DNA of 64,000 bases from positions 19,122,113 to 19,186,112 of the forward strand of contig CM044963.1 in NCBI GenBank assembly GCA_024516035.1, given 5' to 3'. Positions 1 to 63,206 of this stretch are shown one piece after another. Source of the DNA: Bactericera cockerelli (lineage: Eukaryota; Arthropoda; Insecta; Hemiptera; Triozidae). The position numbers and the translations under genes were made by a program. Below the pieces are notes generated by a model that had not been told where the DNA came from, did not search any database, and saw only the letters and a program-made list of their open reading frames with translations. Every line of letters starts with the position of its first letter. Position 1 is the stretch's first letter.

Positions 1-48
1 ATGGGCGACAAAAAATATTCAGGTTTTTTTTCAAACCTAAATGACATT

Positions 49-222
49 TTGTGTGTGTGTGTGTGGTGTGTGTGTGTGTGGTGTGTGTGGTGTGTGGTGT
101 GTGTGTGTGTGGTGTGTGTGTGTGTATGGTGTGTGTGTGTATGGTGGTGTGTGTGGTGTGTGTGTGGTGTGTGTGTGTGGTGTGTGTGGTGTGTGTGTGG
201 TGTGTGTGTGGTGTGTGTGTGT

Positions 223-308
<86 letters not shown>

Positions 309-470
309 TGTGTGGTGTGTGGTGTGTGTGTGTGTGGTGTGGTGTGTGTGTGGTGTGTGTGTGTGTGTGGTGTGTGCGTGTGTGGCGTGTGTGCGTGTGT
401 GTGGTGTGTGTTGTGTGTATGTGGATGTGTGTGTGGGTGGGTGGGTGTGTGTGTGCGTTGTGTGTGTTTG
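49..470. repeat. Compound (GT)n / GTGTGG microsatellite
   Basis: About 420 bases of GT dinucleotides broken by GTGTGG units, with a few GC and TA variants toward the right end. Long open frames of Cys and Val occur on the plus strand only because the repeat has no stop codons. No gene is supported here. Confidence 0.97.
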
Positions 471-502
471 ATGGGCTGGCGAAGCGGCGGGTGTAACCCG
501 CT

Positions 503-1350
503 AGTTAATTATAAAAAATGGGTTTTTTTGGAATAATAATCCACAGGCCTTTAAGACTTGGATTAAAGATCAGTCGATATTAAAGAATTTGAAATAAAAT
601 ATATATACGAGAAAGAATAATAATAATAATAAAGTAGTCACCGTGGCAGAGTGAGTTAGCGCGCTAGGCATTGCACACATGGTGACCTGAGTTCGATCCC
701 CGGCGGAGCAGGAATTTTTCTGCTCTATAGTAGTTCGGGGTTCACTCATACCTCGTGAGGAAAAATGAGTTTACTTGTATGAATTACGAAAAGTGGTGGC
801 ATTACCAGAGTAAAAAGAAAAGAATGTAATAGAATAATTGGAAAAAAATAAAGGAGGCTCTTAGTAATGCTGCGATACCCACAAAAATTGTGAAGAGGCC
901 TTGTGCTTCACCATAAATAAAACCATATATAATAATAATAATGCTTTTTCTTTGTGTTATTTTGTCACAATTTTAATGGGTAGCGCAGAATCATAGGACT
1001 CTACCACTTTAAATTTACAATATCTTGTATTTGTTTTTGCCTATGATTCTGCCACTGGTCGCTGCTTCACATCAAAGCAGCTACTCATTTTTCCTCACGA
1101 GGTATGAGTGGACCCCGAACATCCAAGTACAGAAAAATTCCTACACCGCTGGGGATCGAACCCAGGTGCGTGCAATGCCTCGTGCGCTAACTCACTCTGC
1201 CACGGTGACTACTTCATTAGTATTATTCTTTCTCGTTTATTTTATTTCAAATTCTCTAATATCGACTGATCTTTAATCCAAGTCTTAAAGGCCTGTGGAT
1301 TTTTAATATTATTATTCCAAAAAATCCATTTTTTGTAATTAATATTTCAA
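503..1350. repeat. Inverted repeat (about 270-bp arms) carrying opposed SINE heads
   Basis: The left arm (about 503-775) is matched in reverse complement by the right arm (about 1080-1350). Both arms hold the same flank (CCACAGGCCTTTAAGACTTG) followed by a tRNA-like SINE head, GTGGCAGAGTGAGTTAGCGC, with a B-box-like GTTCGATCCC. The left copy points plus and the right copy points minus. The loop (776-1079) holds SINE body sequence, including a run that also occurs at 41480-41790. Duplication by inversion of a SINE with its flank explains this better than two insertions, because the flank is shared. Confidence 0.8.
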
Positions 1351-1584
1351 TCACACTTTATTTACAAAAGAAGAAAAATATAATTAATTAATAAATTTCA
1401 TAAGACAAGTTTTTCTCTGAACATACAGAGATGCTACCAGATGCTGTCCAGATGAAGGAAATTTTTTACTTATAAATGTTATCATCTTGTTGTTTTAAAA
1501 TTAATTAACATAATTAATAATCGTCTTAAATATAATTACAGTGACTGCCAATAAATAATGGAATTTTGCTTTCAAACAACTCAC

Positions 1585-1813
1585 CCTCATTTGATTCTTG
1601 AGTGTCGCCAGGTCGGTTCCCTCGGCGGGCACGGGCACATTGTAGAACTCGCCTTCCTCCTCCGTGAGCAGCTTGTACCACCCGTCCACGGGCGCCTTGA
1701 TCAGCTCCGAGATCCCGAAGGAGAGAGAGCCCATGAAATCGTTCCTGGAGGTGCGGTCCCAGTCCCACACCTCTATGAGGAGGCGGCGGTCCTTGTCTTC
1801 AGGCTTGAGCTCA
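1585..1813 (-). CDS. Conventional protein kinase C, C2-domain exon (second half)
   Basis: This 229-bp internal exon encodes the second half of a type-I C2 domain, the calcium and phosphatidylserine sensor of a conventional PKC. The frame reads [20 protein letters not shown], then [13 protein letters not shown], then GWYKLL, and ends ATLKNQMR. The Asp residues of WDWD and RND correspond to calcium ligands of loop 3. The acceptor CCCCCAG lies at 1814-1820 and the donor GTGAGT at 1579-1584. It opens with one base that completes a Phe codon with exon 2876-3029 and closes in phase 0 after Arg. That end fits kinase exon 49085-49216 (phase 0, starting KTSITKK), although that exon lies 47 kb away on the wrong side. 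No in-frame damage is visible. Confidence 0.95.
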
Positions 1814-1814
1814 C

Positions 1815-2290
1815 TGGGGGAGGGGCGGGAGAGCAGAGAGGTAACACGGTACCAGTGATGATAAGAGTTGGGTGGAAGAGATTGTCGAAGCCAATAGCAC
1901 GCCCTTTACTTAACACATAGACGACCGGCATGTTTTTAGTAAGTTCTCCCGTGGGACCGGCGATGTTTAGGCTATTCACAGGCGTAGTACATGAGTGTAC
2001 CACCGGTGGTACACCCGGTCCATTCCGTACAGACACGCGTGTACCACCGGTGGTACACCCGGTCGTCCAAGTGTTAAGAGATTATGTATAGTAGGGAGAG
2101 AGGGAGAACAGAGAGATAACTGTGATGATAAGAGTGGGGTGGAAGAGATTGCCGAACCCAATAGCCCGCCCTTTACTTAAGAGATTATGTATAGTAGGGA
2201 GAGAGGGAGAGCAGAGAGGTACCAGTCATGATAGGGGTTGGGTGGAAGAGATTGCCGAAGCCAAGAGCCCACCCTTAGTTACGATATTAT
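1815..2290. repeat. Three about 100-bp tandem units derived from a LINE tail
   Basis: Three copies (starting near 1815, 2085 and 2185) carry GAGAGAGGGAGAGCAGAG followed by GGGTGGAAGAGATTGCCGAA and a CCCGCCCTTTA-like end. The second half equals the LINE 3' tail found at 33838-34010 and 35283-35675. The first copy begins at the pyrimidine tract of the C2 exon acceptor. Between units, two copies of the perfect palindrome GTGTACCACCGGTGGTACAC lie near 1994-2013 and 2039-2058. Confidence 0.7.
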
Positions 2291-2384
2291 AAGTATAAGT
2301 AGTGCTTTATTTAGACTGTCAGCGCAAGACAGATAGTCCCATTATGCCACAGTTTATTATGCATAATGGTATTTTTTAAAACCC

Positions 2385-2488
2385 ACCCAAAATTTCCAAG
2401 AAACCCCAGCAAAGATGGAATATACGTTGGGCGAGATCCCCTCAACCCCCCCCCCCCCCCCAAATTTGCTCTAGCTACGCCACTGGCT
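2385..2488. mobile_element. Partial copy of the CAGTGGCGTAGCTAG hAT MITE
   Basis: It shares AATTTCCAAGAAACCCCAGC, the GATGGAATATACGTT run, a C-tract and the terminal CTAGCTACGCCACTGG with the complete MITE at 50378-50620. The left terminus is missing. Confidence 0.75.
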
Positions 2489-2875
2489 GGTATAAAATTC
2501 CGAGAGAGTGGCGGGTAAAACCAAATGGAACCAACTGGTCACAAAAAAATTCATTGGATTGCAGTGTTCATTGTAGTAGTGAAGATATCTTAATTGAAAT
2601 GTATTTACATAAATCACAAAGGGCGGGATTTTAGCCTAAGGTAATCTCGATTGTGTGGAGTTTCTCTTTTTTTAAGTTTCCATGTATTTATATTTCACAA
2701 TAACATCTTCAACAAACAATAAGGGTATACAATACACCTTCAAAAGATAAAAGATCTTGTGTTGAAGGTGGGGAATTCTACAACCAGGTGAAAAAATAAA
2801 AGCTTTCATTTCGGTACAAGTAGATGGTGCCTAATACGAAAAAAAGAAAAGAGAAGGAAAAAAGCAACCACTCAC

Positions 2876-3029
2876 AAAGTGATTGTCTCGTTCCACACCG
2901 GGTTGAGGGAGGACCGAATGGTTTTGGTTTTCTTCTTGATGTTATCCGAGTCAGGGATGAGTTTCAGCTTCACGTAGGGATCCGACAGGCCGTTAGGGTC
3001 CATGGGAATGAGATTGGCGCCCTGTCGGA
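2876..3029 (-). CDS. Conventional protein kinase C, C2-domain exon (first half)
   Basis: This 154-bp exon encodes [20 protein letters not shown], then LKLIPD, and later [19 protein letters not shown]. This is the calcium-loop-1 half of a conventional PKC C2 domain: [10 protein letters not shown] supplies two calcium-ligand Asp residues, and the following Lys-rich strand is the lipid-binding patch. The acceptor TCTTCAG lies just above 3029 and the donor GTGAGT at 2870-2875. The first two bases complete a Val codon from an upstream exon that I could not find. The last two join exon 1585-1813 in phase. The C1 zinc fingers and pseudosubstrate that should precede it were not found between 3030 and 7990. 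Confidence 0.95.
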
Positions 3030-3654
3030 CTGAAGAGACAAAGGACAAGAAAAGTCAGATTAGTTAAAATCGTGGTTAACCCTTATTTTGGCAATGTGAC
3101 CATATGGCATATGGATATCATCCGTTTTGTTTACTCTTTTGGCCCAAAATTAATCCTAAAGCATTTTTTCTTCCACAAAACATTAAAACGCTTTACGCAT
3201 TTCCGCTTTATTTAAAGTGGCAAAATTGAGCTCTTCCATCCAATTATCATCAAGTAAAGGAGTACTTTTCAAAAATAAATGAAATATTAAAAAATGAAAT
3301 TATCTGCCAACAAGATAAGGCTTAAAATATTGACAGGTTAATAAAAATACGAGAAATAATGATCTGTAAGAAATCAAGGGTACTACGGCGAAGTGCATGT
3401 TGGGCGAACATCCAAAAAAAAAAAAAAAAAAAAATATCAAAAGAACCCTCAAAAGGGCAAGTTTACGTTCGGGTACATACCAGTTGGACAACCAAGTGCC
3501 CAAACCTTAGAAGAAATAATAATCGTTCGGTCATCAAACAATGGAAGAAAGGTCTCTCTTTACCTGCCTGTATTATTTCGATACAGGGTGAAAATTTAAC
3601 AACAAAGCGGAACTAAAAAAGTGCCTGAAATATAAATACCTACAAAATCTTTAT

Positions 3655-3882
3655 GATTTCATTCCCTTCGCCGTTGAAACCTTTGGCTCTTTTGGGCCAA
3701 GTGCTTTGGAAATGTTTAACAGCATATCCAAAACTTTGGTCCTTGAGACGAAAGACAGACGTGCCGGGGAATATTTCAGGCAACGGCTTAGTTTCGCTGT
3801 TCAGAGAGGTAATGTTGCCTCAGTGCTGAGCACACTGCCTCGGGAAGATGTCCTTGGAGAAGTCTTTTATTGTATATTGTAA
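3655..3882 (+). pseudogene. LINE reverse-transcriptase C-terminal remnant
   Basis: The plus frame reads DFIPFAVETFGSFGPSALEM, then DRRAGEYFRQRLSFAVQRGN and VASVLSTLP, ending at a TAA. The pattern QR(L/I)S.A.QRGN.A.V..TLP marks the C-terminal tail of many arthropod LINE polymerases. An A-rich tail follows to about 3925. No polymerase core remains, so this is a 5'-truncated insertion. A related piece lies on the minus strand at 35430-35624. Confidence 0.75.
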
Positions 3883-4106
3883 AAAAATATTAAATAAACT
3901 AAAAAAAACTAAAATACCCATTCTCTGTATGGAATATATTTTGGTACATTATAGGTACAGGGTGGTTCAGAACTTACTTTCCACAGTGAGTTTGCTCCCC
4001 GCGCATGTTATCTTGAGCTCTATTCGGCCACGCCTCTCTGTATGATCACACCCACACAGGTTCGGCACACTCTCCTCACACCTCTTGTGAACGTTCATAT
4101 CACAGG

Positions 4107-4654
4107 CTGCGAAATTTTAGATTAAGAGAAGGTCAGACGGCGAAATATTAGATTGGGGGACAATTAGACTGCGAAATATTAGATTGGGGGACAATTAGAC
4201 GGCGAAATATTAGATTGGTGGACAATTAGACGACGAAATATTAGATTGGAGGACAATTGGTCGGCGAAATATTAGATTGGGGGACAATTTGACTGCGATA
4301 TATTAGATTGGGGGACAATTAGACGGCAAAATATTAGATTGGGGGACAATTAGACGACGAAATATTAGATTGGAGGACAATAGGTCGGCGAAAATTAGAT
4401 TGGGGGACAATTAGACGGCGAAATATTAGATTGGAGGACAATTGGTCGGCGAAAATTAGATTGGGAGACAATTAGACGGCGAAATATTAGATTGGTGGTC
4501 AATTAGACCGCAAAATATTGAATTTGGAGACAATGCGACGACAAAATATTAGATTGGAGGACGATTAGACGCCGATATATTAAATTGAGGAACGGCTAAA
4601 TGACAAAATGTTAAATTGGAGGACAATTAGATGACGGAATATTAGATTAGAGGG
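4107..4654. repeat. 31-bp minisatellite, about 17 copies
   Basis: The unit is about CGAAATATTAGATTGGGGGA followed by CAATTAGACGG. Copies diverge progressively toward the right edge. There are no unique spacers, so it is a eukaryotic tandem array. Confidence 0.95.
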
Positions 4655-4659
4655 CGCAA

Positions 4660-4860
4660 TATACAATTTCAATTACAAGATAGATCAGGAAGAGAATGCC
4701 GTAGGCATTAGCACCGCCCTTGATCAAGTTTTGTTTAATAATTTCAAATTTGTTTCCTGTAAATTGTATATGTATATATTGTATTTTGTAAATAAGATCG
4801 TATAAGACGTGATTGAATCTGTTTGATAATAATAAAAATAATAATAGGTATAGGTAGGTA
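4660..4860 (+). mobile_element. Retroelement 3' tail (TTAGCACCGCCCTTGATCAA)
   Basis: GGCATTAGCACCGCCCTTGA, then TCAAGTTTTGTTT and an AT-rich tail, recurs at 36425-36505. In both copies AT-rich or TAA-rich sequence follows. It is probably a LINE or SINE 3' end, but no coding part is attached. Confidence 0.55.
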
Positions 4861-4987
4861 TTAGATTAGAAATAGTAGTGACTTATGAAAATATGTCGTG
4901 AATTATAACAACAAACTTCGTCAAATTTTAGAATTATGTGTAAATTTTATATTAAAAGAAGATAACAGACACTAATCTATCTAAATG

Positions 4988-5185
4988 AGTAGTAGTCACT
5001 TTGGCCTAGCTGTATCATGCTCGGCTTGCACTGCAGGTGACCCGGGTTCGAATCACGGCGGGATCAGATTTTTTTGGCTCTGTACTTTGGATGTCGGGGC
5101 CTATTATGGAGATATGATGCATAAGTTCTCGTAATTTCGATGCTACCCACTAAAAATTGTGACATAATAACACAAATAACTAGCT
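4988..5185 (+). mobile_element. tRNA-headed SINE (family S, diverged)
   Basis: GTAGTCACTTTGGCCTAGCT is followed by the B-box-like GGGTTCGAATC and an end CTACCCACTAAAAATTGTGA shared with family S at 41470-41790. The middle is diverged. Confidence 0.65.
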
Positions 5186-5689
5186 CTTATCTTATCTAAT
5201 TAGATGTAGGTAACCAGCTTCGTAAAAAATAGGAAGTTAGGTACAACAGACCTATATAATTTTATTTGAACCTGAAAAGAATGTCTTCTTTTTTACGATT
5301 ACCACTTTCAAAATACAAGTTTTATTACAAACACCCATAAAAAATAAGGAGACACGCAAAGTTCTGGTGCTCACCTAACATATGTTCTACATCTCAGACA
5401 AGCATAAATAAGAAGGGGGAAAAAAAGTATTTCCCCCATTTCAAATCATCCCTATCAGATGCCCCTATAAGCGTTTAACAATGGAGCACAGCACATTTCT
5501 GGAGTAGATCCTGCCTGCTCTTTCCATAAACCTCACAAGAACTTTGCTAGGATCAGGTGGAGTGGACGCCACTTTGTTCATAAACCCGGGACAAAAGAAA
5601 GAAAGAGGATTAGGAGAGAATATTTTTTCGAATTCTCTTCGATAAAAAACACAGGGAACAGGGGGATTGTGGGGAGGAGGCGAAGGAAA

Positions 5690-6061
5690 TGGGATGGAAA
5701 GACGAAATACGTGTAGAGGTGAAGAAGAGAGGGGAGATGGGGGGGGGGAGGGAGAGACAGAGAGAGAGAGAGAAAAAGAGAAAGAAAGAGAGGAAAAGAG
5801 AGAGGAAAGGGATTGAGTAGAAGGGTGGGGAAGAAGTAAGAAAAGATAAATAAGGAGAAGGAGAAAGAGAGAGAAGAGAATGTATTGAGGATTGGGAGGA
5901 GAGAGAAGAAAAGAGTAAGAAAAGAGATTGAGTAGAAGGGAGGGAAGCAAGTTAGAAAAGATAATCAGGAGAGAGGGAGAGAGATAAAAAAAAAATAGAG
6001 AGAAAGGGATTGAGTAGAAAGGTGAGGAGGAAGTAAGAAAAGATAAATAAGGAGAGGGAGG

Positions 6062-6095
<34 letters not shown>

Positions 6096-6175
6096 GAGAG
6101 GGAAAAAGAAAAGAGAAGAAGATGTAGGAAGGATAAATAAAAGAGGGAGGAAAGTTAGAAAAGATGAATGAGGAG

Positions 6176-6206
<31 letters not shown>

Positions 6207-6240
6207 TAAGTTAAGAAGGAAGGATAAAGAGAAGAAGGAG
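5690..6240. repeat. Polypurine (GA-rich) low-complexity tract with minisatellite structure
   Basis: Strand-asymmetric A/G sequence in which GGATTGAGTAGAAGGGTGGG recurs with AGAAAAGATAAATAAGGAG at about 5810, 5930 and 6008, between pure GA runs. Ser/Leu-rich open frames on the minus strand are artefacts of the purine bias. Confidence 0.92.
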
Positions 6241-6900
6241 GGAGGTAGAAAGAAAGAAAATCATCTCCCAGACGTATTCTCATCTGTATACAGACTCTCC
6301 TGTATAACTCTTCAGCGTATACAACTATACAGGTTGTAACGTTACCACAGTGTGCTGGAACAAAATTCAAAGGTTTAACGCTTATTTCCCCTTCGGGTGT
6401 TTGCAATTGTGTTGCAAATTCCTAAAAGGAATTAAAAACAGGTATTAACCAAGGTGGTTTTTTTTATTGTTTGTTTTTTTTTTTTTTCTTTTCTAAGACG
6501 AGTGTTTCACAGCCTTCTTTATTTCCTAGCCATGAAACAAGAGCTACTGTAGACGCTTGTCGTCTGTGTTGTAGCCTGATCACCCCGTAGTATGCCTCCC
6601 CAATTAGGTGCTGGGTTAACACGAGTGCACCGGAAGGTATGTATCCTTTACAAACAATAAAATTGTATCCAAATAAATATACAAATATCTGTCGGCACGG
6701 ACAATGAAATTCTTGACTATATGAGACAAAAGCAGATCCGATTTTTTATCTACCAAAGTTATTGTACATATTACAAACAGTCTCATAAAAATTATCTGTT
6801 TCTGGGACTCAAACTACCGATCTCCACGTTTCGAGACCGCTGCGGTCACGATCGAGCTACTGAAGGTGGGGGGGCGTTTAGAAAAAGAGCGCTCAATGTT
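6241..6900 (-). mobile_element. SINE fragments, including family H (6500-6640)
   Basis: The stretch GTGTTTCACAGCC ... CATGAAACA ... CCCCGTAGTATGCCTCCC ... GAGTGCACC is the reverse complement of the SINE at 45910-46190. A further tRNA-like run with GATCGAGCTACTGA lies at 6780-6870. An open frame at 6241-6406 (minus) matches nothing I recognise, and I do not call it a gene. Confidence 0.55.
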
Positions 6901-6904
6901 TCAA

Positions 6905-7200
6905 TATTCTCTCTCTGGTAGCGCACGGGGCTTGCACGCCCGGTAATCTGGGTTCGAATCCCTGCTGGGTTGTAATTTTCAAAATTTATACTTTGGATAT
7001 CCGACGTTCACTCATACCTTATGAGGAAAAATGAGTATAGTTTTTTCTATGAGTAACAACTCATTACCAGAGTAAAAAGAGAACACAATACTTCCCCGAT
7101 TTCTAATATTACAAATTTCTCGCAGTAATAATTAAAATTATAAAGAAAAGTAAAGGGGACTAAATGCTGGGCTACCCACAAATATTGTGAAAACGCTCAT
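6905..7200 (+). mobile_element. tRNA-headed SINE (family S-like)
   Basis: The head GGTAGCGCACGGGGCTTGCA and B box GGGTTCGAATCCC lead into CACTCATACCTTATGAGGAA and AAAATGAGT, shared with 740-770 and the 41470-41790 copy. It ends CTGGGCTACCCACAAATATTG. Confidence 0.7.
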
Positions 7201-7374
7201 GCTTGAGCCCAAAAAAATTATACTTCAGCTGTTGGTTCGATCCCAAGATTTGGAGACTTTCTTTTCCTTCGATTTTCCTTACACCTTGTACATACATATC
7301 TTGAATCACTATTCCAAATGTCAAATTATTTTCTTGGAGGTAAATAAGAAAATATGGAAGGAAAAGAAAATAAG

Positions 7375-7399
7375 AGAATGAGAGAGAGAGAGGGAGAGA

Positions 7400-7447
<48 letters not shown>

Positions 7448-7990
7448 GATAGAGAAAGAGAAGGAGAGAAACAGAGAAAGAGAAGGAGAGAAAGAGAGAG
7501 ACAGAAAAGGAGAGAAAGAGAGAGAGAGAGAAGGAGAGAAAGGGAGAGAAGGAAAGAAAGGAGAGAGAAAGAAAGAGAGAGAGAGAGAAGGAGAGAAAGG
7601 GAGAGAAATAGAGAGAGAGAGAGAGAGAAAGAAGGGAGAGAAAGAAAGAGAGAGAGAGAGAGGGAGAAATAGAGAGAGAAGGAGAGAGAGAGAGAGGGAG
7701 AAATAGAGAGAGTAAGTAAGGGAAAGAGCAGAGAAGCAGAGAGAGGGGAAGAAAGATAAAGAGAGGGAAACAGAAGAAAAGCAGGGACAGAGAGAGAGAG
7801 AGAGAGAGAGAGACATAGAGAGAAGGAGAGAGAGGGAGAGACATAGAGAGAAGGAGAGAGAGGGAACTGAGACTTTGAAGGAGAGAGAGGGAAGGAAAAG
7901 AAGAAGGTAGTAAGGGGTAAGGGACATTTCAACAGAAAAGACTAGAGAGATACAGAGAGTGGGAGGGGGAAGAGAGAAAGAGAAGGAGGC
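7375..7990. repeat. (GA)n low-complexity tract at the contig end
   Basis: About 600 bases of GAGA with GGA and AAA variants and one ACATAGAGAGAAGGAGAGAG unit repeated near 7813-7860. It runs directly into the N gap, so the contig probably ended because this repeat could not be assembled. Ser/Leu frames on the minus strand are artefacts. Confidence 0.95.
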
Positions 7991-8090
7991 NNNNNNNNNN
8001 NNNNNNNNNNNNNNNNNNNNNNNNNNNNNNNNNNNNNNNNNNNNNNNNNNNNNNNNNNNNNNNNNNNNNNNNNNNNNNNNNNNNNNNNNN
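7991..8090. other. Assembly gap of 100 N
   Basis: Exactly 100 N, the usual placeholder for a scaffold join of unknown size. The left side ends in a GA repeat and the right side begins inside a long inverted-repeat transposon. Both are repeats that break or mislead assembly. Order across this gap should not be trusted (see the PKC exon order). Confidence 0.98.
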
Positions 8091-33117: not shown

Positions 33118-33434
33118 ATTAGACTTGTGCTGGGATCCATGACATCGGATCCGAAGGTCTAGTGCTGGGATCCATGACAGCGGATCCCAAGGTCTAGTGC
33201 TGAGATCCATGATAGCGGATCCCAAGGTCTAGTGCTGGGATCCTTGACAGCGGATCCCAAGGTCTAGTGCTGGGATCCATGACAGCGGATCCCAAGGTCT
33301 AGTGCTGGGATCCATGACAGCGGATCCCAAGGTCTAGTGCTGGGATCCATGACATCGGATCCGAAGGTCTAGTGCTGGGATCCATGACAGCGGATCCCAA
33401 GGTCTAGTGCTGGGATCCTTGACAGCGGATCCCA
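33118..33434. repeat. 35-bp hairpin-forming minisatellite, 9 copies
   Basis: The unit is GGTCTAGTGCTGGGATCCAT then GACAGCGGATCCCAA. Each unit contains TGGGATCC and GGATCCCA separated by eight bases, a perfect stem-loop. Variants with ACATCGGATCCG occur at both ends of the array. Confidence 0.95.
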
Positions 33435-34250: not shown

Positions 34251-34341
34251 CTACACTAGTGCTGACGCGATGCACACGTGCTGACGCGATGCACACGTGC
34301 TGACGCGGGGCACACGTGCTGACGCGGCTTACACGTGCTGA
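34251..34341. repeat. 19-bp tandem repeat overlapping the PKC stop codon
   Basis: Four units of about GTGCTGACGCGATGCACAC end in a partial fifth, GTGCTGAATG, which is PKC coding sequence. Read on the minus strand every unit begins with CAGCACGTGT, the codons for the last residues (Gln-His-Val). Only the first unit has TAA next; the others have TGC at that position. Confidence 0.9.
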
Positions 34342-34481
34342 ATGTACTCCGGGTTGAGGAAGGAGAAGCCCATGAATTCTGTCTGGTCCAGATTCATCAT
34401 GAAGAGTTTGTCCGTCGGAGTCAGATCTAGCTTCTCGCCCGTGAACTGTTTGTCGAAGTTGGACACGTCTTTCCGGTGTTT
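34329..34481 (-). CDS. Conventional protein kinase C, C-terminal exon
   Basis: This 153-bp terminal exon follows acceptor TTATTTCAG and encodes 50 residues then TAA. It reads KHRKDVSNFDKQFTGEKLDL, TPTDKLFMMNLDQ, EFMGFSFLNPEY and ends IQHV. TPTDK is the turn-motif phosphorylation site and FMGFSF is the hydrophobic motif with its Ser, so the AGC-kinase C-tail is complete. It joins exon 35681-35821 in phase 0. The terminal IQHV lacks a Ser or Thr two residues from the end, so it is not a classical PDZ ligand. Confidence 0.96.
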   Translation of the reverse strand, partial: KHRKDVSNFDKQFTGEKLDLTPTDKLFMMNLDQTEFMGFSFLNPEYIQHV

Positions 34482-39230: not shown

Positions 39231-40205
39231 TCCGTGGCGTAACTCCTTTGCTATTGGGAACATAAAAGCAAGACTCACTCCTTTGCACGCCTCCTTGGAC
39301 TATGAAGAATACATAAAAGCAAGACTCACTCCTTTGCTATTGGGAACATAAAAGCAAGATTCACTCCTTTGCACGCCTCCTTGGACTATGAAGAATACAT
39401 AAAAGCAAGACTCACTCCTTTGCTATTGGGAACATAAAAGCAAGATTCACTCCTTTGCACGCCTCCTTGGACTATGAAGAATACATAAAAGCAAGACTCA
39501 CTCCTTTGCACGCCTCCTTGGACTATGAAGAATACATAAAAGCAAGACTCACTTCTTTGCTATTGGGAACATAAAAGCAAGACTCACTCCTTTGCACGCC
39601 TCCTTGGACTATGAAGAATACATAAAAGCAAGACTCACTCCTTTGCACGCCTCCTTGGACTATGAAGAATACATAAAAGCAAGACTCACTTCTTTGCTAT
39701 TGGGAACATAAAAGCAAGACTCACTCCTTTGCACGCCTCCTTGGACTATGAAGAATACATAAAAGCAAGACTCACTCCTTTGCTATTGGGAACATAAAAG
39801 CAAGACTCACTCCTTTGCACGCCTCCTTGGACTATGAAGAATACATAAAAGCAAGACTCACTCCTTTGCACGCCTCCTTGGACTATGAAGAATACATAAA
39901 AGCAAGACTCACTCCTTTGCTATTGGGAACATAAAAGCAAGACTCACTCCTTTGCACGCCTCCTTGGACTATGAAGAATACATAAAAGCAAGACTCACTC
40001 TTTTGCACGCCTCCTTGGACTATGAAGAATACATAAAAGCAAGACTCACTTCTTTGCACGCCTCCTTGGACTATGAAGAATACATAAAAGAAAGACTCAC
40101 TCCTTTACTATTGGGAACATAAAAGTAAGAATCACTCCTTTGCACGCCTCCTTGGACTCCTTGGACTATGAAGAATATATAAAGGAAAGACTAGAGGACC
40201 ACTGA
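39231..40205. repeat. Minisatellite built from the donor end of PKC exon 40351-40539
   Basis: Two unit types alternate: about 51 bp (GACTCACTCCTTTGCACGCC, TCCTTGGAC, then TATGAAGAATACATAAAAGC) and about 35 bp (GACTCACTCCTTTGC then TATTGGGAACATAAAAGCAA). On the minus strand the start of each unit reads GCAAAGGA then GTGAGTC, the last coding bases and the 5' splice site of the neighbouring exon. The long unit includes about 22 coding bases. I count about 13 long and about 10 short units. It lies wholly in the intron downstream of that exon. Confidence 0.93.
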
Positions 40206-40350
40206 GCTATTGGGAACATAAAAGCAAGACTCACTCTTTTGCTATTGGGAACATAAAAGAAAGAGAGGGGCAAGGACTCTGAATGTTACAGACTTCTCTT
40301 TAAATAAATATTCACTAAAAGAAAAAAAAAAAGAAAAAAAAAAGACTCAC

Positions 40351-40539
40351 TCCTTTGCACGCCTCCTTGGACTCCTTGGACATGGTCTTAGGGTAGCTGA
40401 CGGAGTGGTCCGTGATGGCGGCGAACAGCTCCTCCTCGTCCTCCCCGTCAAAGGGCGGCTGCCCCACCAGCATCTCATACAGGAGGACGCCATACGCCCA
40501 CCAGTCCACAGACTTGCCGTACGGCTGATACAGGATGAT
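40351..40539 (-). CDS. Conventional protein kinase C, kinase-domain exon (C-lobe)
   Basis: This 189-bp exon has acceptor GCTTTCCAG and donor GTGAGT, phase 0 at both ends. It encodes [60 protein letters not shown] and [16 protein letters not shown] is the kinase subdomain IX helix. The 3' end contains a small internal duplication (TCCAAGGAG twice), which may have helped seed the downstream minisatellite. Confidence 0.97.
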
Positions 40540-42396: not shown

Positions 42397-42488
42397 ACCG
42401 CCACTGGCTCCTTGAACTTGCCTATCTGCTGTATCTGGAACATGAGATCTCCGCCATTCACATACTCCATCACGAAGTACAGGCGGTC
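42397..42488 (-). CDS. Conventional protein kinase C, kinase hinge exon
   Basis: This 92-bp exon has acceptor TTCACAG and donor GTGAGT. It encodes [20 protein letters not shown] and [10 protein letters not shown] plus two bases of Val. [11 protein letters not shown] is the ATP-site hinge, with Met as gatekeeper. Phase 0 at the start joins exon 47976-48149 (ending CFQTM). Confidence 0.97.
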
Positions 42489-43578: not shown

Positions 43579-43842
43579 GCCAGCGTCGATGGCATGTTGA
43601 ATACACCGGTTCCCTTCAGAACACCGAAGTTAAGCGACATCCAGCGAGGTTAAGACTTGGATGGGTGACCATTCAAATTCTAATTCTCGTGACGCTGGCT
43701 TTTCCCGGCCCCACTCAGGCTGGGTGAGGTCAATGTGAGTAGCAGGTTTGTAAGTTTCCTGCGAATGGAGGGTAAAACCCCGTCGTGATATGACCATGGC
43801 AGTTGAAAGCGACGTTAAACCCCAATTAAAAAAAAAAATAAT
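43579..43842 (+). mobile_element. Complete 5S rRNA-derived SINE with 13-bp target duplication
   Basis: The first about 122 bases mimic 5S rRNA: GCCAGCGTCGATGGCATGTT, GAATACACCGG, CCGAAGTTAAGCGACATCCA, CTTGGATGGGTGACC and a closing GACGCTGGC. The SINE body (CAGGCTGGGTGAGGTCAATG, GCGAATGGAGGGTAAAACCC) and the end GACGTTAAACCCCAATTAAA follow. The duplication AAATAAATATTCA occurs at 43566-43578 and 43843-43855 with no mismatch, so the insertion is recent. Two bases of divergence in the closing stem and a changed 3' half show it is not a working 5S gene. Confidence 0.93.
43625..43670 (+). promoter_or_regulatory. Internal RNA polymerase III promoter of 5S type in the SINE
   Basis: GAAGTTAAGC (A box) at about 43626-43635 and CTTGGATGGGTGACC (C box) at about 43656-43670 match the TFIIIA-type internal control region, with the intermediate element between. 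This is how such a SINE would be transcribed; activity is inferred. Confidence 0.7.
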
Positions 43843-47312: not shown

Positions 47313-47920
47313 TGACTACAGAACAAGGTATCCTGACAGCAAAAAAAAAAAAAAAAAAAAAAAAACGGAAATCGGTATATTGGTAAATATATCCATTATT
47401 CAATATTATTTTGTTCCTATTATCGATTAAAAATATAAAAGAACTGTATTTTGTTTGTATAAAATAATTGAACTTACTTGCTTTCTTTAATTATCTTGGA
47501 TTTTTTTCATTATCCACACGCATTTTACAGTTTTGCTAGCGAGATGCAGAGGGGTAGAGCAAAAATCTGACTTTGTTATTGATTTGCCCAGAAACTGTTT
47601 GTTTGAGAGTTAATTTGATGGGAATAATTGTGCTAGATAATTTTGTTACAATTCTATCACTTTTTAAATTTTAATTCTAAATTGATCTATTACAGAGAAA
47701 ATCAACAAGAAGTGCGGAAAAACGTATATTGCCCCTTCAATTAGCATATCTAAACTTTAAGCTCCTGGCGGCACGTGTTAACGTTTTCTGATCGAGCTGA
47801 AACTTTTTAGCAATTTTTTTCTCATGAATTGGAACCACTTTGGGGGGGAGCACCTTTGATTTCCGACCTTCAAAAATAAGGGCCACCCTAGTCACCCATC
47901 CAAGTCCCAGAAATCGCTGG

Positions 47921-47988
47921 TCTGGAAAAGCTCACCATGGTCTGGAAAAGCTTACCATGGTCTGGAAAAGCTTACCATGGTCTGGAAG
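47921..47988 (-). repeat. 20-bp tandem repeat copying the 5' splice site of exon 47976-48149
   Basis: Three adjoining copies of CATGGTCTGGAAAAGCTTAC (the leftmost has CTCAC) run from the exon edge into the intron. On the minus strand this gives three donors in a row: GTAAGC at 47975, GTAAGC at 47955 and GTGAGC at 47935, each preceded by CCAGACCATG. Use of a distal donor would add 20 or 40 nt and shift the frame. Each unit also carries CTTTTCCAG, a weak acceptor. Confidence 0.92.
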
Positions 47989-48149
47989 CAGGAGTGCAGC
48001 TGAACGAGGAAAGGAGGCTTGAGGGAGAGAGCCAGGACCCTTTTCTCCACCATGGTGCACTCCACGTCGTCATCCTGAATGATGATGTCCTTCTTGAGGA
48101 TTTTGATCGCGTACAGCTCGTCAGTTCCTTTCCGTTCCGCCAGCATCAC
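47976..48149 (-). CDS. Conventional protein kinase C, N-lobe exon
   Basis: This 174-bp exon is in phase 0 at both ends. It encodes [66 protein letters not shown] holds the ATP-anchoring Lys and EKRVL the helix C Glu. The annotated acceptor is TACTTCCCAG directly before GTGATG, and the donor is GTAAGC. Both edges are themselves tandem-repeated (47921-47988 and 48141-48756), so splice-site choice here may vary. I chose the innermost pair because it alone preserves the family sequence. Confidence 0.96.
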
Positions 48150-48756
48150 CTGGGAAGTAACAATAGGAAAGAAACAATAGCATCACCTGGGAAGTAACAA
48201 TAGCATCACCTGGGAAGTAACAATAGCATCACCTGGGAAGTAACAGTAGGAAAGAAGCAATAGCATCACCTGGGAAGTAACAGTAGGAAAGAAACAATAG
48301 CATCACCTGGGGAAGTAACAATAGGAAAGTAACAATGGCATCACCTGGGAAGTAACAATAGGAAAGTAACAAGAGCATCACCTGGGAAGTAACAATAGGA
48401 AAGTAACAATAGCATCACCTGGGGAAGTAACAATAGGAAAGTAACAATAGCATCACCTGGGGAAGTAACAATAGCATCACCTGGAAAGTAACAATAGGAA
48501 AGTAACAATAGCATCACCTGAGAAGTAACAATAGGAAAGTAACAACAGCATCACCTGGGGAAGTAACAATAGGAAAGTAACAATAGCATCACCTGAGAAG
48601 TAACAATAGGAAAGTAACAACAGCATCACCTGGGAAGTAACAATAGGAAAGTAACAACAGCATCACCTGGGAAGTAACAATAGGAAAGTAACAATAGCAT
48701 CACCTGAGAAGTAACAATAGGAAAGTAACAAGAGCATCACCTGGGAAGTAACAATA
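48141..48756 (-). repeat. 37-bp minisatellite copying the 3' splice site of exon 47976-48149, about 18 copies
   Basis: The unit (plus strand) is AGCATCACCTGGGAAGTAAC then AATAGGAAAGTAACAAT, with some 23-bp short units. On the minus strand each unit is a pyrimidine-rich run, TTACTTCCCAG, then GTGATGCT, which are the acceptor and first coding bases of the exon. The unit nearest the exon merges with it. Variants (CTTCTCAG, CTTCCCCAG, CTTTCCAG) all keep AG before GTGATG, so each copy is a candidate acceptor. Confidence 0.94.
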
Positions 48757-48759
48757 GTT

Positions 48760-49084: not shown

Positions 49085-49216
49085 CTTGCCGAAGCTCCCC
49101 TTGCCTAGAACTTGCAGGAAGTTGAAGTCCGAAGCCCGGATGACATCTTTCTTGCCCATGTTGTGAGGGACATCCTTGTCTGGGGCCACAGGGATCTTCT
49201 TGGTGATGGAGGTTTT
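49085..49216 (-). CDS. Conventional protein kinase C, V3 hinge and glycine-loop exon
   Basis: This 132-bp exon has acceptor CATTCCAG and donor GTAAAC. It encodes KTSITKKIPVAPDKDVPHNM, GKKDVIRASDFNFLQVLGKG and SFGK. LGKGSFGK(V) is the glycine-rich ATP loop, and the preceding Lys-rich piece is the V3 hinge. Phase 0 at the start accepts the phase-0 end of C2 exon 1585-1813 (ending KNQMR). No C2 or C1 exon was found between 49217 and 64000, where it should be if the map were right. Confidence 0.96.
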
Positions 49217-58505: not shown

Positions 58506-58968
58506 TTTTTGATACTGGGTTGGGTAACATCTAGCTTCAATTCCTACCCAATGTAAATATTTCTGACAGAATATGGGCTTAACAGTTTCTTTTAAATCCT
58601 GTATTTGTTCTGATTTATTTTGGTATGATAAAATTCAAAAGTTTTTTTGTCATTGGTTTTTCCTACTTGAAATACCTGTGTCAAAAAATATAATACTATG
58701 CAGGTATGTATATTATAAAAATATTCTATTGCTGTTCATGGAGAAGGAATGTGGTAGTATTTATTAGAGCAATTCATAACAAATTAAAAATTAAAATTAG
58801 TAATTATTATAATATAAAGCTAAATAATATATTTAATAAAAACTATGGTACACACATTAGCTTCAAGAAAGAGATAGAGATTTATTCGACCAGTGAATAA
58901 ATTTGAGTTACCACGAAATAACTTTGCTCCGTCCAAATTTCCGAAATAATCGCGAAATAAATTTTACA

Positions 58969-59799
58969 ATGGTTCGTCCAAAGAAGACAAGAAAGTCAAA
59001 TATGTCAAATGTCAGCACAGAAAGTGAAGCATATGCAGAATTATTGGATAAAGAGCAAGATACAGGTGAGCTTACAAATAGAGAAATTCTGTTGAGTTTG
59101 AAACAAAAGTTAGAAGAAATGGATTCTAGAATGAATCAGGTACTCAAGATAGTTGAGAGTCAGAAATTGAGGATTTCAGAATTAGAAAAAGAACTGGGTA
59201 ATCAAAAGACTGAAAATGAAATTTTGAGAGAAGAATTTGAGAATTCACAGGAAATGATAGAAGAATTGCAACAGAGGTCAAGGCTGAATAATGTTATTAT
59301 TAATGGAATCAAGCAGGAGAAAAACGAAGATATTTACAAAGTAGTGGAAAAACTGGGAATTAAAATTGGTATAGAAAATCCGTTGAAAGACATTCAAGTA
59401 GCACACAGAGTTAATTCGACCAAGAAAGATAAAATAAAGCCCATAGTCATCCGTATGGCTAATTCCTCAACCAGAGATAAATGGACATGTGCATACCGGA
59501 AGAGTCAACTGTGGAACGACAAAATATTTGTTAATGAGCACCTGACCAAACGAAATCAAGATTTACTTTACAAGGTAAAACAATTTAAAAAGTCCAACAA
59601 CTTTAAGTATGTATGGGTAAAAGACTGTAAGATTTTGATCCGTAAAGATGAAAATGCAAGAATTTTTGCTGTAAGATGTGTTGAAGATTTGGAGAAGATA
59701 CTATCCGCGAGGTCAACTCGAACTAATTCAACTCAATCTCAGTCAACGTCTGCAGATAACACTGATAGTTATCACTCTGCTGTCTCATCAAATTTTTAA
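58969..59799 (+). CDS. LINE ORF1 protein: coiled coil plus FP-like nucleic-acid binding domain
   Basis: The product has 276 residues from ATG at 58969 (context ACAATGG). The open frame extends 22 codons upstream but only with a non-ATG codon, so this start is preferred. Residues 1-15 are basic (MVRPKKTRKS). Residues about 40-104 form a heptad coiled coil (LKQKLEEMDSRMNQVLKIVE, LEKELGNQKTENEILREEFE). RLNNVIINGI at 105-114 begins a domain with AHRV (145-148), FVNEHLT (187-193) and WVKDCKILIRK (216-226), the pattern of the FP-like ORF1 domain found in insect LINEs. Residues 247-276 are Ser/Thr-rich. In this family the protein trimerises and coats element RNA as a chaperone. Confidence 0.88.
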   Translation: MVRPKKTRKSNMSNVSTESEAYAELLDKEQDTGELTNREILLSLKQKLEEMDSRMNQVLKIVESQKLRISELEKELGNQKTENEILREEFENSQEMIEELQQRSRLNNVIINGIKQEKNEDIYKVVEKLGIKIGIENPLKDIQVAHRVNSTKKDKIKPIVIRMANSSTRDKWTCAYRKSQLWNDKIFVNEHLTKRNQDLLYKVKQFKKSNNFKYVWVKDCKILIRKDENARIFAVRCVEDLEKILSARSTRTNSTQSQSTSADNTDSYHSAVSSNF

Positions 59800-60212
59800 C
59801 ATTATCAATCAAAATGACGCAATTTGTTAAAATAATTTTATTTTTTTTTGCATCAAACATTTATTAACTTATTTTTCTGTAAAAATCTCAATTTGTTTTA
59901 TTGCCTTTTCATAATGATAATATTTAATAATTTTTTTTCTTTGTTAAGAAAAAAAACCAATTTTATTTCATAATATTGAAAACTCCATTGCTAACATTAC
60001 TTTAATTTGTCAATTTCCGAAAATTAACGTCCTTTCTAAGTTGATATATAATCCAGCTAAAATAATTAATTCATTTTCCAGAGATTATTCATTCTTAATT
60101 TTTCTACATATATTCATCAAATTTCAGTCCAAAAAATATAATAATACGATAGTGATATTTCCTATATTTACATTTAAATTTATTATTTATTTATTCAGAT
60201 CCTCTAAACCAA
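59800..60212. other. AT-rich spacer between LINE ORF1 and ORF2
   Basis: 413 bases, over 75 percent A+T by eye, with stops in all plus frames. Most two-ORF LINEs have overlapping or closely spaced ORFs, so this is long. It holds T-runs (59829-59847, 59931-59941) and no clear structure. Confidence 0.6.
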
Positions 60213-63206
60213 ATGAGTAATATTTCAGATATTATTTCGAATTCTATCGCAGAAGACTGCAAAATTTTCAAAAATATTATAGACGCTGAGGAATTTTGCG
60301 ATTCTCATGGACTGAAAGTATTTCATATGAATATAAATAGAATTAAAAGTAATTTCAATGAATTAATACTAACTTTAACACCTTTTTTACTCAGTATTGA
60401 CATTATCATACTAACTGAAACTTGGTATCACCCTTCATTCCCTTATTCTTTCTCTATAACAGGATTTAGCAGCTTCTTCACCACCAACCAATACAACGCT
60501 GCCTCTGGAATTGCTGTGTATACCAGATCTGACCTGAACATACAAACTGACGAAATAACAAATTTGACAATGACTAACTGCTTGAAAATTGACCTGAAAT
60601 TTAAAGACAAACAACTAACTATACTGACATTATATAGATCTCCTACTAGTAGTGCTGCTACATTTATAAATGAATTAGATATTTTGTTAACTGAGATAAA
60701 AAATGATAGATGTATGATAATAGGAGATACGAATATAAATATACTCGATGATAATATCAACAATATAGGACAAGACTACCTTGACATACTACACAAATAT
60801 AATTACGTACCAACTGTAAATAAACCAACTAGGGAAACAATTAATACACGACAAAACCGACAATCAACATACAAAACAACATCATGTATTGACCATATTA
60901 TGTATAAAAGTAATACTATTCAGGAGATAAAAACAGCAATTATACATACCAACATAACTGACCATTACTCGTTACTAGCTAAAATCGACTTTAACAAAGA
61001 CAAACCATTAGAACAAATAACAAAACAATACCTAAAAATTGACTACGATACCCTTAATAACAAACTGTCAAATCAAGACTGGTCTTGTATAACTAATTCT
61101 CAAAACGTTAATTACATGGCAAACCGACTTACTGAAATAATACAAGACCACATTAACACAAGCTCAGAAACAAAGACTTATACGAACAGACTTACACCAA
61201 TTAAACCTTGGATGACACTAGCACTTCTAAAATCTATTAGGAATAAAGACAGACTAGCCGAACTTACTAAAAGACATCCATATAACCCTAGACTACTTCA
61301 ATATTATAAAAAAGTGAGAAATATTGTATCCAAAGCCATCCGCACAGCAAGGGATTTAGAATTAAAACGAAACATTGACAATAACCAAGACGACAAAAGA
61401 AAATTATGGACAATTATACATGACGTCATAGACAAAACAAATAACAAATTTAATATAAGAACCATTACTCATGACAATACTGACTATGACTGCTATGAGG
61501 ACACAACTAACTGTGCTAATATTTTCAACAACTATTTTATCAATGTTGGAAAAAATATAGCAGAAACTATAAGTAAAAATAACATAATAACAAGTACTAC
61601 TACTAGACATAATGACACAGAACCATCACCATCAACTCAAACAATACTTTCAACTTTCGAACCTACTACTACAACTGAAGTGTATAAAACAGTTATGACT
61701 TTTAAAAACAATTCTGCTCCTGGTTATGACAGACTACAGACAAAAATAATGAAACACATAATAACACAAATACTAGACCCACTAACTAAAATTATAAACC
61801 GAAGTATGACTGACGGAATTTTTCCGGACTGCTACAAAAATAGTATTATAGTACCAATACATAAAAAAGGAAACAAAAAACTACTAACTAATTACAGACC
61901 TATATCACTCCTTACAATTTTCAGTAAAATTCTTGAAAAAATCATAAAAACAAGACTTGACAATTACTTACAAACTAACAATATACTTACAAATAAACAG
62001 TACGGCTTTAGGAAAACTATAGGAACAGAGGACGCCCTTCTTGACTTGACGACATACCTGTACAAAAACTTAGACCAAAAGAAGAAGGTTCTATCTGTAT
62101 TTTTAGACATTTCTAAAGCCTACGACTCAATTAAACACTCTAAACTAATACAACAACTATATAACATTGGACTGAAAGACACAGTACTTACCTGGTTTAC
62201 TTCATACTTGAAAAACAGGACTCAACAAGTAAGACTAAACTCCCACTTGTCGAATGTAACAAATTGTGAACCTTTTTCAATAATTCAAGGAAGTTGTCTT
62301 GGGCCTTGTCTTTTTAACTGTTTTATAAATAATTTACCTGGTATAAGTCAAGGCCAAGTCTTCTGCTATGCTGATGATGCAGTCATTTGTTACAGTTCAG
62401 ACACGTGGGAGGAGACTCATGACATAGCAACTACTGACTTAACAAACATAGGCAAATGGTATTCCCATATGTCTTTGAAGATAAATTTTGACAAGACAAA
62501 TTACATGACCTATTCCATTGACAATAGAGGACAACCACAGACATCATCACTTCAAATTAAAGACAGCACTAACTCTACAATAAAATTACAAAGACTAAAT
62601 AAGACACGATACTTGGGAATTACGATTGACCAACATTTGAAATGGACAGACCACATCATACAATTGAAAAACAAACTCCGTCATCTCATGTATGTTTTCC
62701 ATAATTTGAAAAGAATATGCAATAGATCTCATTTACGAGAAATATACTTTGCACTAGTGCAGTCGCTAGTGCAATACTGTATAGTTGCATGGGGCGGAGC
62801 ATACCAGAACTTACTGTCACCACTTAACAGGACCCTCAACATACTATTAAGAATTATACTAAACAAAGACAGATACTTTCATTCCGACGATTTATACAAA
62901 ACTTTTGACGTACCTACCATACAAGACATATACATTTATAAAACTTGCTTTTTTTCATTAAAAAAGCGAGATATGTGGACTTTTCGACAGACTAATTACA
63001 ATACAAGACAAACAGGACAAGCTTCACTAACAACCATACGTACATCACTAATGAGAAAACATTTTTCTTACATAGGAATTAAAATATACAATGTCATACC
63101 AGAAGAAATAAAAATATTATTAGATCCTAAACTTGTTAGATTAAGAATAAGGGAATGGCTAAAAAGCGCAAACGTCAAAAATGAAATAATAAATACCATC
63201 AAATAA
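60213..63206 (+). CDS. LINE ORF2 polyprotein: APE endonuclease and reverse transcriptase
   Basis: The product has 997 residues from ATG (context ACCAAATGA). Endonuclease (1 to about 260): N41 in HMNINRI, E69 in LTETW, Y141 in LYRSP, GDTN at 171-174, CIDH at 225-228 and the terminal TDHYS at 249-253, so the catalytic set is complete. Reverse transcriptase (about 490-800): NYRPISLL (560-567), FLDISKAYDSIKH with D632, QGSCLGPCL (692-700), YADD (719-722) with both catalytic Asp, and YLGITID (800-806). A connector and a C-terminal region with Cys/His (910-997) follow. It nicks target DNA and primes cDNA synthesis. No RNase H motif is present. Confidence 0.95.
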   Translation: MSNISDIISNSIAEDCKIFKNIIDAEEFCDSHGLKVFHMNINRIKSNFNELILTLTPFLLSIDIIILTETWYHPSFPYSFSITGFSSFFTTNQYNAASGIAVYTRSDLNIQTDEITNLTMTNCLKIDLKFKDKQLTILTLYRSPTSSAATFINELDILLTEIKNDRCMIIGDTNINILDDNINNIGQDYLDILHKYNYVPTVNKPTRETINTRQNRQSTYKTTSCIDHIMYKSNTIQEIKTAIIHTNITDHYSLLAKIDFNKDKPLEQITKQYLKIDYDTLNNKLSNQDWSCITNSQNVNYMANRLTEIIQDHINTSSETKTYTNRLTPIKPWMTLALLKSIRNKDRLAELTKRHPYNPRLLQYYKKVRNIVSKAIRTARDLELKRNIDNNQDDKRKLWTIIHDVIDKTNNKFNIRTITHDNTDYDCYEDTTNCANIFNNYFINVGKNIAETISKNNIITSTTTRHNDTEPSPSTQTILSTFEPTTTTEVYKTVMTFKNNSAPGYDRLQTKIMKHIITQILDPLTKIINRSMTDGIFPDCYKNSIIVPIHKKGNKKLLTNYRPISLLTIFSKILEKIIKTRLDNYLQTNNILTNKQYGFRKTIGTEDALLDLTTYLYKNLDQKKKVLSVFLDISKAYDSIKHSKLIQQLYNIGLKDTVLTWFTSYLKNRTQQVRLNSHLSNVTNCEPFSIIQGSCLGPCLFNCFINNLPGISQGQVFCYADDAVICYSSDTWEETHDIATTDLTNIGKWYSHMSLKINFDKTNYMTYSIDNRGQPQTSSLQIKDSTNSTIKLQRLNKTRYLGITIDQHLKWTDHIIQLKNKLRHLMYVFHNLKRICNRSHLREIYFALVQSLVQYCIVAWGGAYQNLLSPLNRTLNILLRIILNKDRYFHSDDLYKTFDVPTIQDIYIYKTCFFSLKKRDMWTFRQTNYNTRQTGQASLTTIRTSLMRKHFSYIGIKIYNVIPEEIKILLDPKLVRLRIREWLKSANVKNEIINTIK

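Follow-up and report, generated by a model that had tools for sequence, protein, structure and literature searches.

Minisatellites that span exon-intron boundaries ("mirages") are described in amphioxus for Adh (as cited in PMC3087553), the globins BflGb6 and BflGb9, TnC, and PGBD5 (PMC3087553, PMC3902484). Their unit sizes are given as 10 to 160 bp (PMC3087553), the BflGb6 mirage contains 6 and 3 units depending on the haplotype (PMC3087553, PMC3902484), and the passages on these lancelet loci report no disturbance of splicing (PMC3087553, PMC3902484). Somatic length instability also counts among the defining features of mirages. Comparable systems are the VNTR in intron 18 of human ABCA7 (PMC5954066) and intron gain by tandem duplication (PMC4974935; the Rogers model as cited in PMC3087553). 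Among the titles returned from the open-licence literature, none concerned boundary-spanning arrays in insects; one dealt with intron gain in Drosophila (PMC3296678). The arrays described here, at a kinase-domain exon of a conventional PKC (cPKC) gene, share the anatomy of amphioxus mirages, in a lineage that is apparently new for it.

The window (the whole stretch of DNA analysed, 64,000 nucleotides) contains the following exons and the two arrays that were the focus of this study; copy A, named in one line, is a second copy of the gene described below.

47976..48149, minus strand: cPKC exon of the kinase domain, 58 codons, both ends in phase 0
49085..49216, minus strand: preceding cPKC exon, ending in GSFGK, donor GTAAAC
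42397..42488, minus strand: following cPKC exon, DRLYFVMEY...
40351..40539, minus strand: cPKC exon whose donor edge is also copied into an array
34329-34481, minus strand: last coding exon
3978..4106, minus strand: C1b exon of copy A, acceptor edge at 4106
48150..48757, minus strand: acceptor-side array, 17 decoy AG/GTGAT, units of 37, 38, 24, and 23 bp
47918..47975, minus strand: donor-side array, 2 decoy ATG/GTRAGC and a partial unit, 20-bp units

The product of exon 47976-48149 (starting with 21 residues not written out here and ending in CFQTM) belongs to a conventional PKC, and its best solved relative was PKC-beta II (residues 36-93 of 2i0e_A). The exon includes the Lys of YAIKILKK, the established ATP-binding Lys of the family. 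The gene was mapped as 10 exons from C1b on, and its C1, C2, kinase, and V5 segments were found in the order of a conventional PKC, with an open frame over every mapped junction.

On the minus strand, the exon is read as ...TTACTTCCCAG/GTGATGCTGGCG ... TTCCAGACCATG/GTAAGC (the slash marks the exon edge); in gene orientation, the acceptor is TTACTTCCCAG/GTGATGCT and the donor is TTCCAGACCATG/GTAAGCTT. An earlier note on this DNA had claimed that the exon is bracketed by repeats of its own edges, and this held: the acceptor unit comprises 8 exon and 29 intron bases, and the donor unit 12 exon and 8 intron bases. The numbers of sites in that note, about 18 acceptors and 3 donors, were also reproduced, each including the authentic site: 18 AG/GTGAT (17 decoys), with spacings of 37 (11 times), 38 (3), 24 (1), and 23 (2), and 3 ATG/GTRAGC (2 decoys), with a spacing of 20. 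By direct reading, the 37-bp unit consists of a 23-bp junction-spanning unit and a 14-bp internal duplication of CTATTGTTACTTTC. Several details needed correction. CCCAG, said to precede every acceptor copy, was present in 13 of the 17 decoys, but the other four carried CTCAG or TCCAG; GTAAGC, assigned to every donor copy, was found in two, whereas the outermost read GTGAGC; and units that are never a multiple of three were confirmed for all spacings except the single one of 24.

When the 565-Mb assembly was searched with exact patterns, the acceptor unit gave 21 matches and the donor dimer 12, all within two copies of the PKC gene, and the backwards-read control patterns for both units gave none. 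Since exact matches were confined to the PKC gene copies and the controls were negative, the arrays are beyond chance. Among the 37-bp units, 5 of the 37 columns varied in copy A and 6 of the 37 in the copy containing the exon above (copy B, the window copy); seven unit types were found in A and nine in B, two of them common to both. Selection on the decoys was considered and discarded as an explanation, because the invariance of AG/GT says little when few columns vary and the units themselves were located by the AG/GT motif.

The genome search gave a second match to the exon on the same strand, at a distance of 71 kb and with 97% identity (copy A). Both arrays were present there with other lengths: 32 acceptors including the authentic one (31 copies upstream), and an authentic donor followed by 33 intact copies and one broken copy (34 intact donors in all). 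An insertion in A separates the authentic acceptor from the nearest acceptor copy, which is therefore 250 bp away. For the window copy, the two introns flanking the exon were 935 and 5487 nt long; for copy A, they were 2217 and 1414 nt. That the arrays are an assembly artefact, the refuting condition named by the earlier note, is extremely improbable: repeats are prone to error in assemblies, but both copies carry the arrays, and these differ in unit variants, in length, and in the insertions next to them.

In copy A, the insert that separates the array from the authentic acceptor (L002, about 1690-1915) has an ATT-rich end, which forms the sequence directly before this acceptor. A tRNA origin was rejected for this insert, in which ARAGORN found no tRNA. 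Also in copy A, the first part of the exon that begins with ATCATCCTGTATCAGCC is repeated in a partial copy at C9:19092490, which is located 4.5 kb further upstream than the authentic exon and is identical to it for 44 bases counted from the acceptor; the junction string of this exon was found once in copy B.

The two copies of the gene (genome C9:19067098-19200215) are separated by a scaffold gap within the window:

7991..8090, no strand: 100-N scaffold gap, copy A to the left, copy B (window copy) to the right

All of the 10 mapped exons exist in both copies. Between A and B, 22 synonymous and no nonsynonymous differences were found in 530 codons, such that the mapped protein segment was identical, while 6 of 144 fourfold sites (about 4%) differed. 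The two copies are probably two haplotypes that the assembly placed one after the other, and the window probably mixes two alleles of a retained haplotype pair: positions 1-7990 from copy A and 8091-64000 from copy B. True tandem paralogues would equally lie on the same strand of the same contig, about 71 kb apart, and might be expected from the large insertions unique to each copy and from aligned blocks (22 kb in total, introns and exons) that were about 92.6% identical; however, the alignment of copy A with copy B extends to the very last base ahead of the 100-N gap; on the far side, copy B opens at once in a repeated element and, from 1.8 kb past the gap, runs colinear with A. The lack of amino acid differences over the 530 codons, together with several other kinase matches that similarly occur in close pairs on one contig, also argues against paralogues, which we consider to be quite unlikely and which would require that a gap fell by chance on the edge of the duplication. 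If the copies are haplotypes, the arrays are hypervariable between alleles, and if they are paralogues, the arrays diverged between recent duplicates; under both readings, they are present twice and labile.

Each site was then read out in frame. With the innermost pair, the 10 mapped exons were open over 530 codons in both gene copies and gave one identical 530-residue cPKC segment. None of the 48 outer acceptors (32 and 18 acceptors in A and B, respectively) and none of the 35 outer intact donors (34 and 3) left the frame open, and all 83 outer sites led to premature stops. The claim that a wrong choice would shift the frame was only partly correct: for 6 of the 17 decoys of the window copy (and 10 outer acceptors in A), the cumulative length kept the frame, but these also reached stops, as did the remaining 11. 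The stops result from unit lengths and junction codons and, therefore, are not evidence of design. On the other hand, the expectation of the earlier note that the innermost pair must be favoured was supported, since this pair is the only one with an open frame in each copy and, thus, the pair for a working kinase.

Homologues were compared using the best 120 of 716 found. Past CFQT[MT], the frame started with V, as a GTN donor gives, in 118 of these 120; the other two had D (P0014, which runs into the residues of the next exon) and A. An N-terminal intronic extension was found in 40 of the best 120; 34 of these ended in Q and 6 in K, the residues expected from CAG and AAG acceptors. Among the other 80, 8 continued from GSFGK and 72 started at the exon's own Met. 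A copy of the donor after the exon was found in none of the best 120 of the 716 homologues; 104 of these 120 extend at least 7 residues. Judged by this sequence comparison, the innermost pair is the exon boundary common to nearly all of the 120 best homologues.

The PKC arrays resemble the amphioxus mirages, as described in PMC3087553 and PMC3902484, in that tandem units of 20 and 37 bp, of minisatellite size, span the exon-intron boundary with bases of both exon edge and intron, are located at the acceptor or donor, and in many cases keep AG or GT. The copy number also differs between the two haplotypes, a status that is itself inferred here: 18 and 32 acceptors, and 3 and 34 intact donors. 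One difference is that separate arrays of short units occur at both edges of one exon, although repeats at the 5' and 3' splice sites are also described for lancelet PGBD5; other differences are the 34 intact donors of one PKC copy and a junction array at another exon of the same gene. The VNTR of ABCA7, as presented in PMC5954066, is similar in that its unit is short and contains the GT of the authentic donor, in its hypervariability between alleles (for PKC, on the haplotype reading), and the possibility of canonical splicing with a next donor that shifts the frame; it differs in being on the donor side only and in that effects of length on exon skipping and expression were measured for it. 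The duplicates in intron gain by tandem duplication, in the accounts in PMC4974935 and PMC3087553, also carry AGGT; in contrast to that process (PMC4974935), no new intron was seen in PKC and the copies lie inside existing introns.

The 19 splice junctions of the 10 exons were scanned for at least 2 junction-spanning 24-mer copies (5 mismatches or fewer) within 1.5 kb. Three of the 19 had local copies in both gene copies: both edges of exon 47976-48149, and the donor of exon 40351-40539. This last array and two others in the window are as follows.

39242..40242, minus strand: array from the donor edge of exon 40351-40539, starting about 110-190 bp from the exon and not abutting it
34259..34341, minus strand: 19-bp array across the stop codon of exon 34329-34481
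4107..4648, minus strand: 31-bp array at the C1b acceptor in copy A, intron-side sequence up to AG, no exon bases

The array 39242-40242 (copy B) contains 20 donor-like copies, and mini-exons of 21 nt, complete and with an acceptor-like AG, occur in it 13 times; the corresponding array in copy A, searched with the same patterns, had 9 donor-like copies and no complete mini-exon. Exact matches to its unit pattern were found only in the PKC gene. The 31-bp array abuts or nearly abuts the C1b acceptor, and both this array and the 19-bp stop-codon array occur in both gene copies.

Three further observations concern the neighbourhood. Beyond the stop codon of the gene, a 35-bp array of 8.8 copies, in which every unit contains a repeated GGATCC, was found at 33127-33434. 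An intronic 5S rRNA-like sequence at 43579-43700 (Rfam RF00001, 65 bits), the surroundings of which recur as near copies at other places in the region, is possibly a 5S-derived short repeat. Long open frames on the plus strand are located at 60156-63206 (1016 aa) and 58897-59799 (300 aa).

A splicing- or transcription-linked mutational process might favour the birth of arrays at splice junctions in this genome. In the gene body of the window copy (40.7 kb), 3 of 10 merged arrays have junction-spanning units, a number that random founders reach with P of 1.5e-5 to 1.2e-4; 4 of the 10 sit at an exon end and a fifth was made from one. This calculation is post hoc, however, because two of the three arrays are the original finding, and at least one junction hit is expected with P of 0.06-0.11 when 10 arrays are placed randomly. 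By position, 3 of 19 junctions is also not clearly above random, for which local copies were found at 261 of 3000 sites (B) and 346 of 3000 (A). Furthermore, no junction array was recognised near the ends of the mostly domain-length matches at 30 kinase loci; one low-complexity array (L035, 2.0 copies) was near a match end. We regard such a preference as rather unlikely.

The arrays are likely splice-junction-spanning minisatellites of the mirage type, tolerated as products of slippage. Each would have been seeded by a short duplication across the junction and expanded by slippage or unequal exchange, differently on each haplotype, and the near-identical splice sequences of the decoys would reflect recent copying, not use. 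With long flanking introns, the exon may be defined across itself, such that the closest pair would win and splicing would be mostly correct. In the exon-definition minigenes described in PMC9225289, the inner one of two identical strong donors was used exclusively, and in long-intron contexts, the sites closest across the exon were preferred; larger exons were skipped when donors were weakened. Competing acceptors showed an overall upstream preference that was only reduced under exon definition (PMC9225289). Since the preference for the inner acceptor described there is weaker, leakage at the acceptor is plausible. Leakage to outer sites would give premature stops and, presumably, mRNA decay, and longer arrays may lower the output somewhat, by analogy with human ABCA7.

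RNA structure was rejected as the selector of the inner donor, which was about as paired as the rest in the predicted folding. The long donor side (600 nt, 24 of the 34 donors) was predicted to fold better than shuffles (z -7.2), the 3-donor side like shuffles (z -0.03), and the acceptor sides worse than shuffles (z 5.2 and 2.4).

If the array were a length-dependent dial, the use of outer sites would set the share of PKC mRNA lost to nonsense-mediated decay, and copies with 3 and 34 donors would differ in kinase dose. Such a role, which appears doubtful, is compatible with the stops behind all 83 outer sites, although these follow from unit lengths and junction codons and, therefore, give no sign of design. 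In ABCA7, the 25-bp VNTR unit starts with the exon 18 donor, one-unit retention of about 2% is described, and longer VNTRs go with more exon 19 skipping and lower expression; however, one-unit retention itself was unchanged with length (PMC5954066), and, for Adh and TnC, the lancelet mirages are cited as being without aberrant mRNAs (PMC3087553, PMC3902484). A broader proposal, that junctions are hot spots of minisatellite birth and decoy arrays are heritable, rapidly mutating dials of the kinase, is decidedly improbable. If the dial were true, each added unit would be an extra competing site leading only to decay, and the 3- and 34-donor haplotypes would set different PKC doses.

The two probable haplotypes represent a natural experiment in which one exon, of almost identical sequence in both, occurs with 3 or 34 intact donors and with 18 or 32 acceptors. 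Allele-specific RNA reads would reveal how the spliceosome chooses among identical sites, and a genome-wide survey would reveal whether exon edges attract minisatellites outside lancelets.
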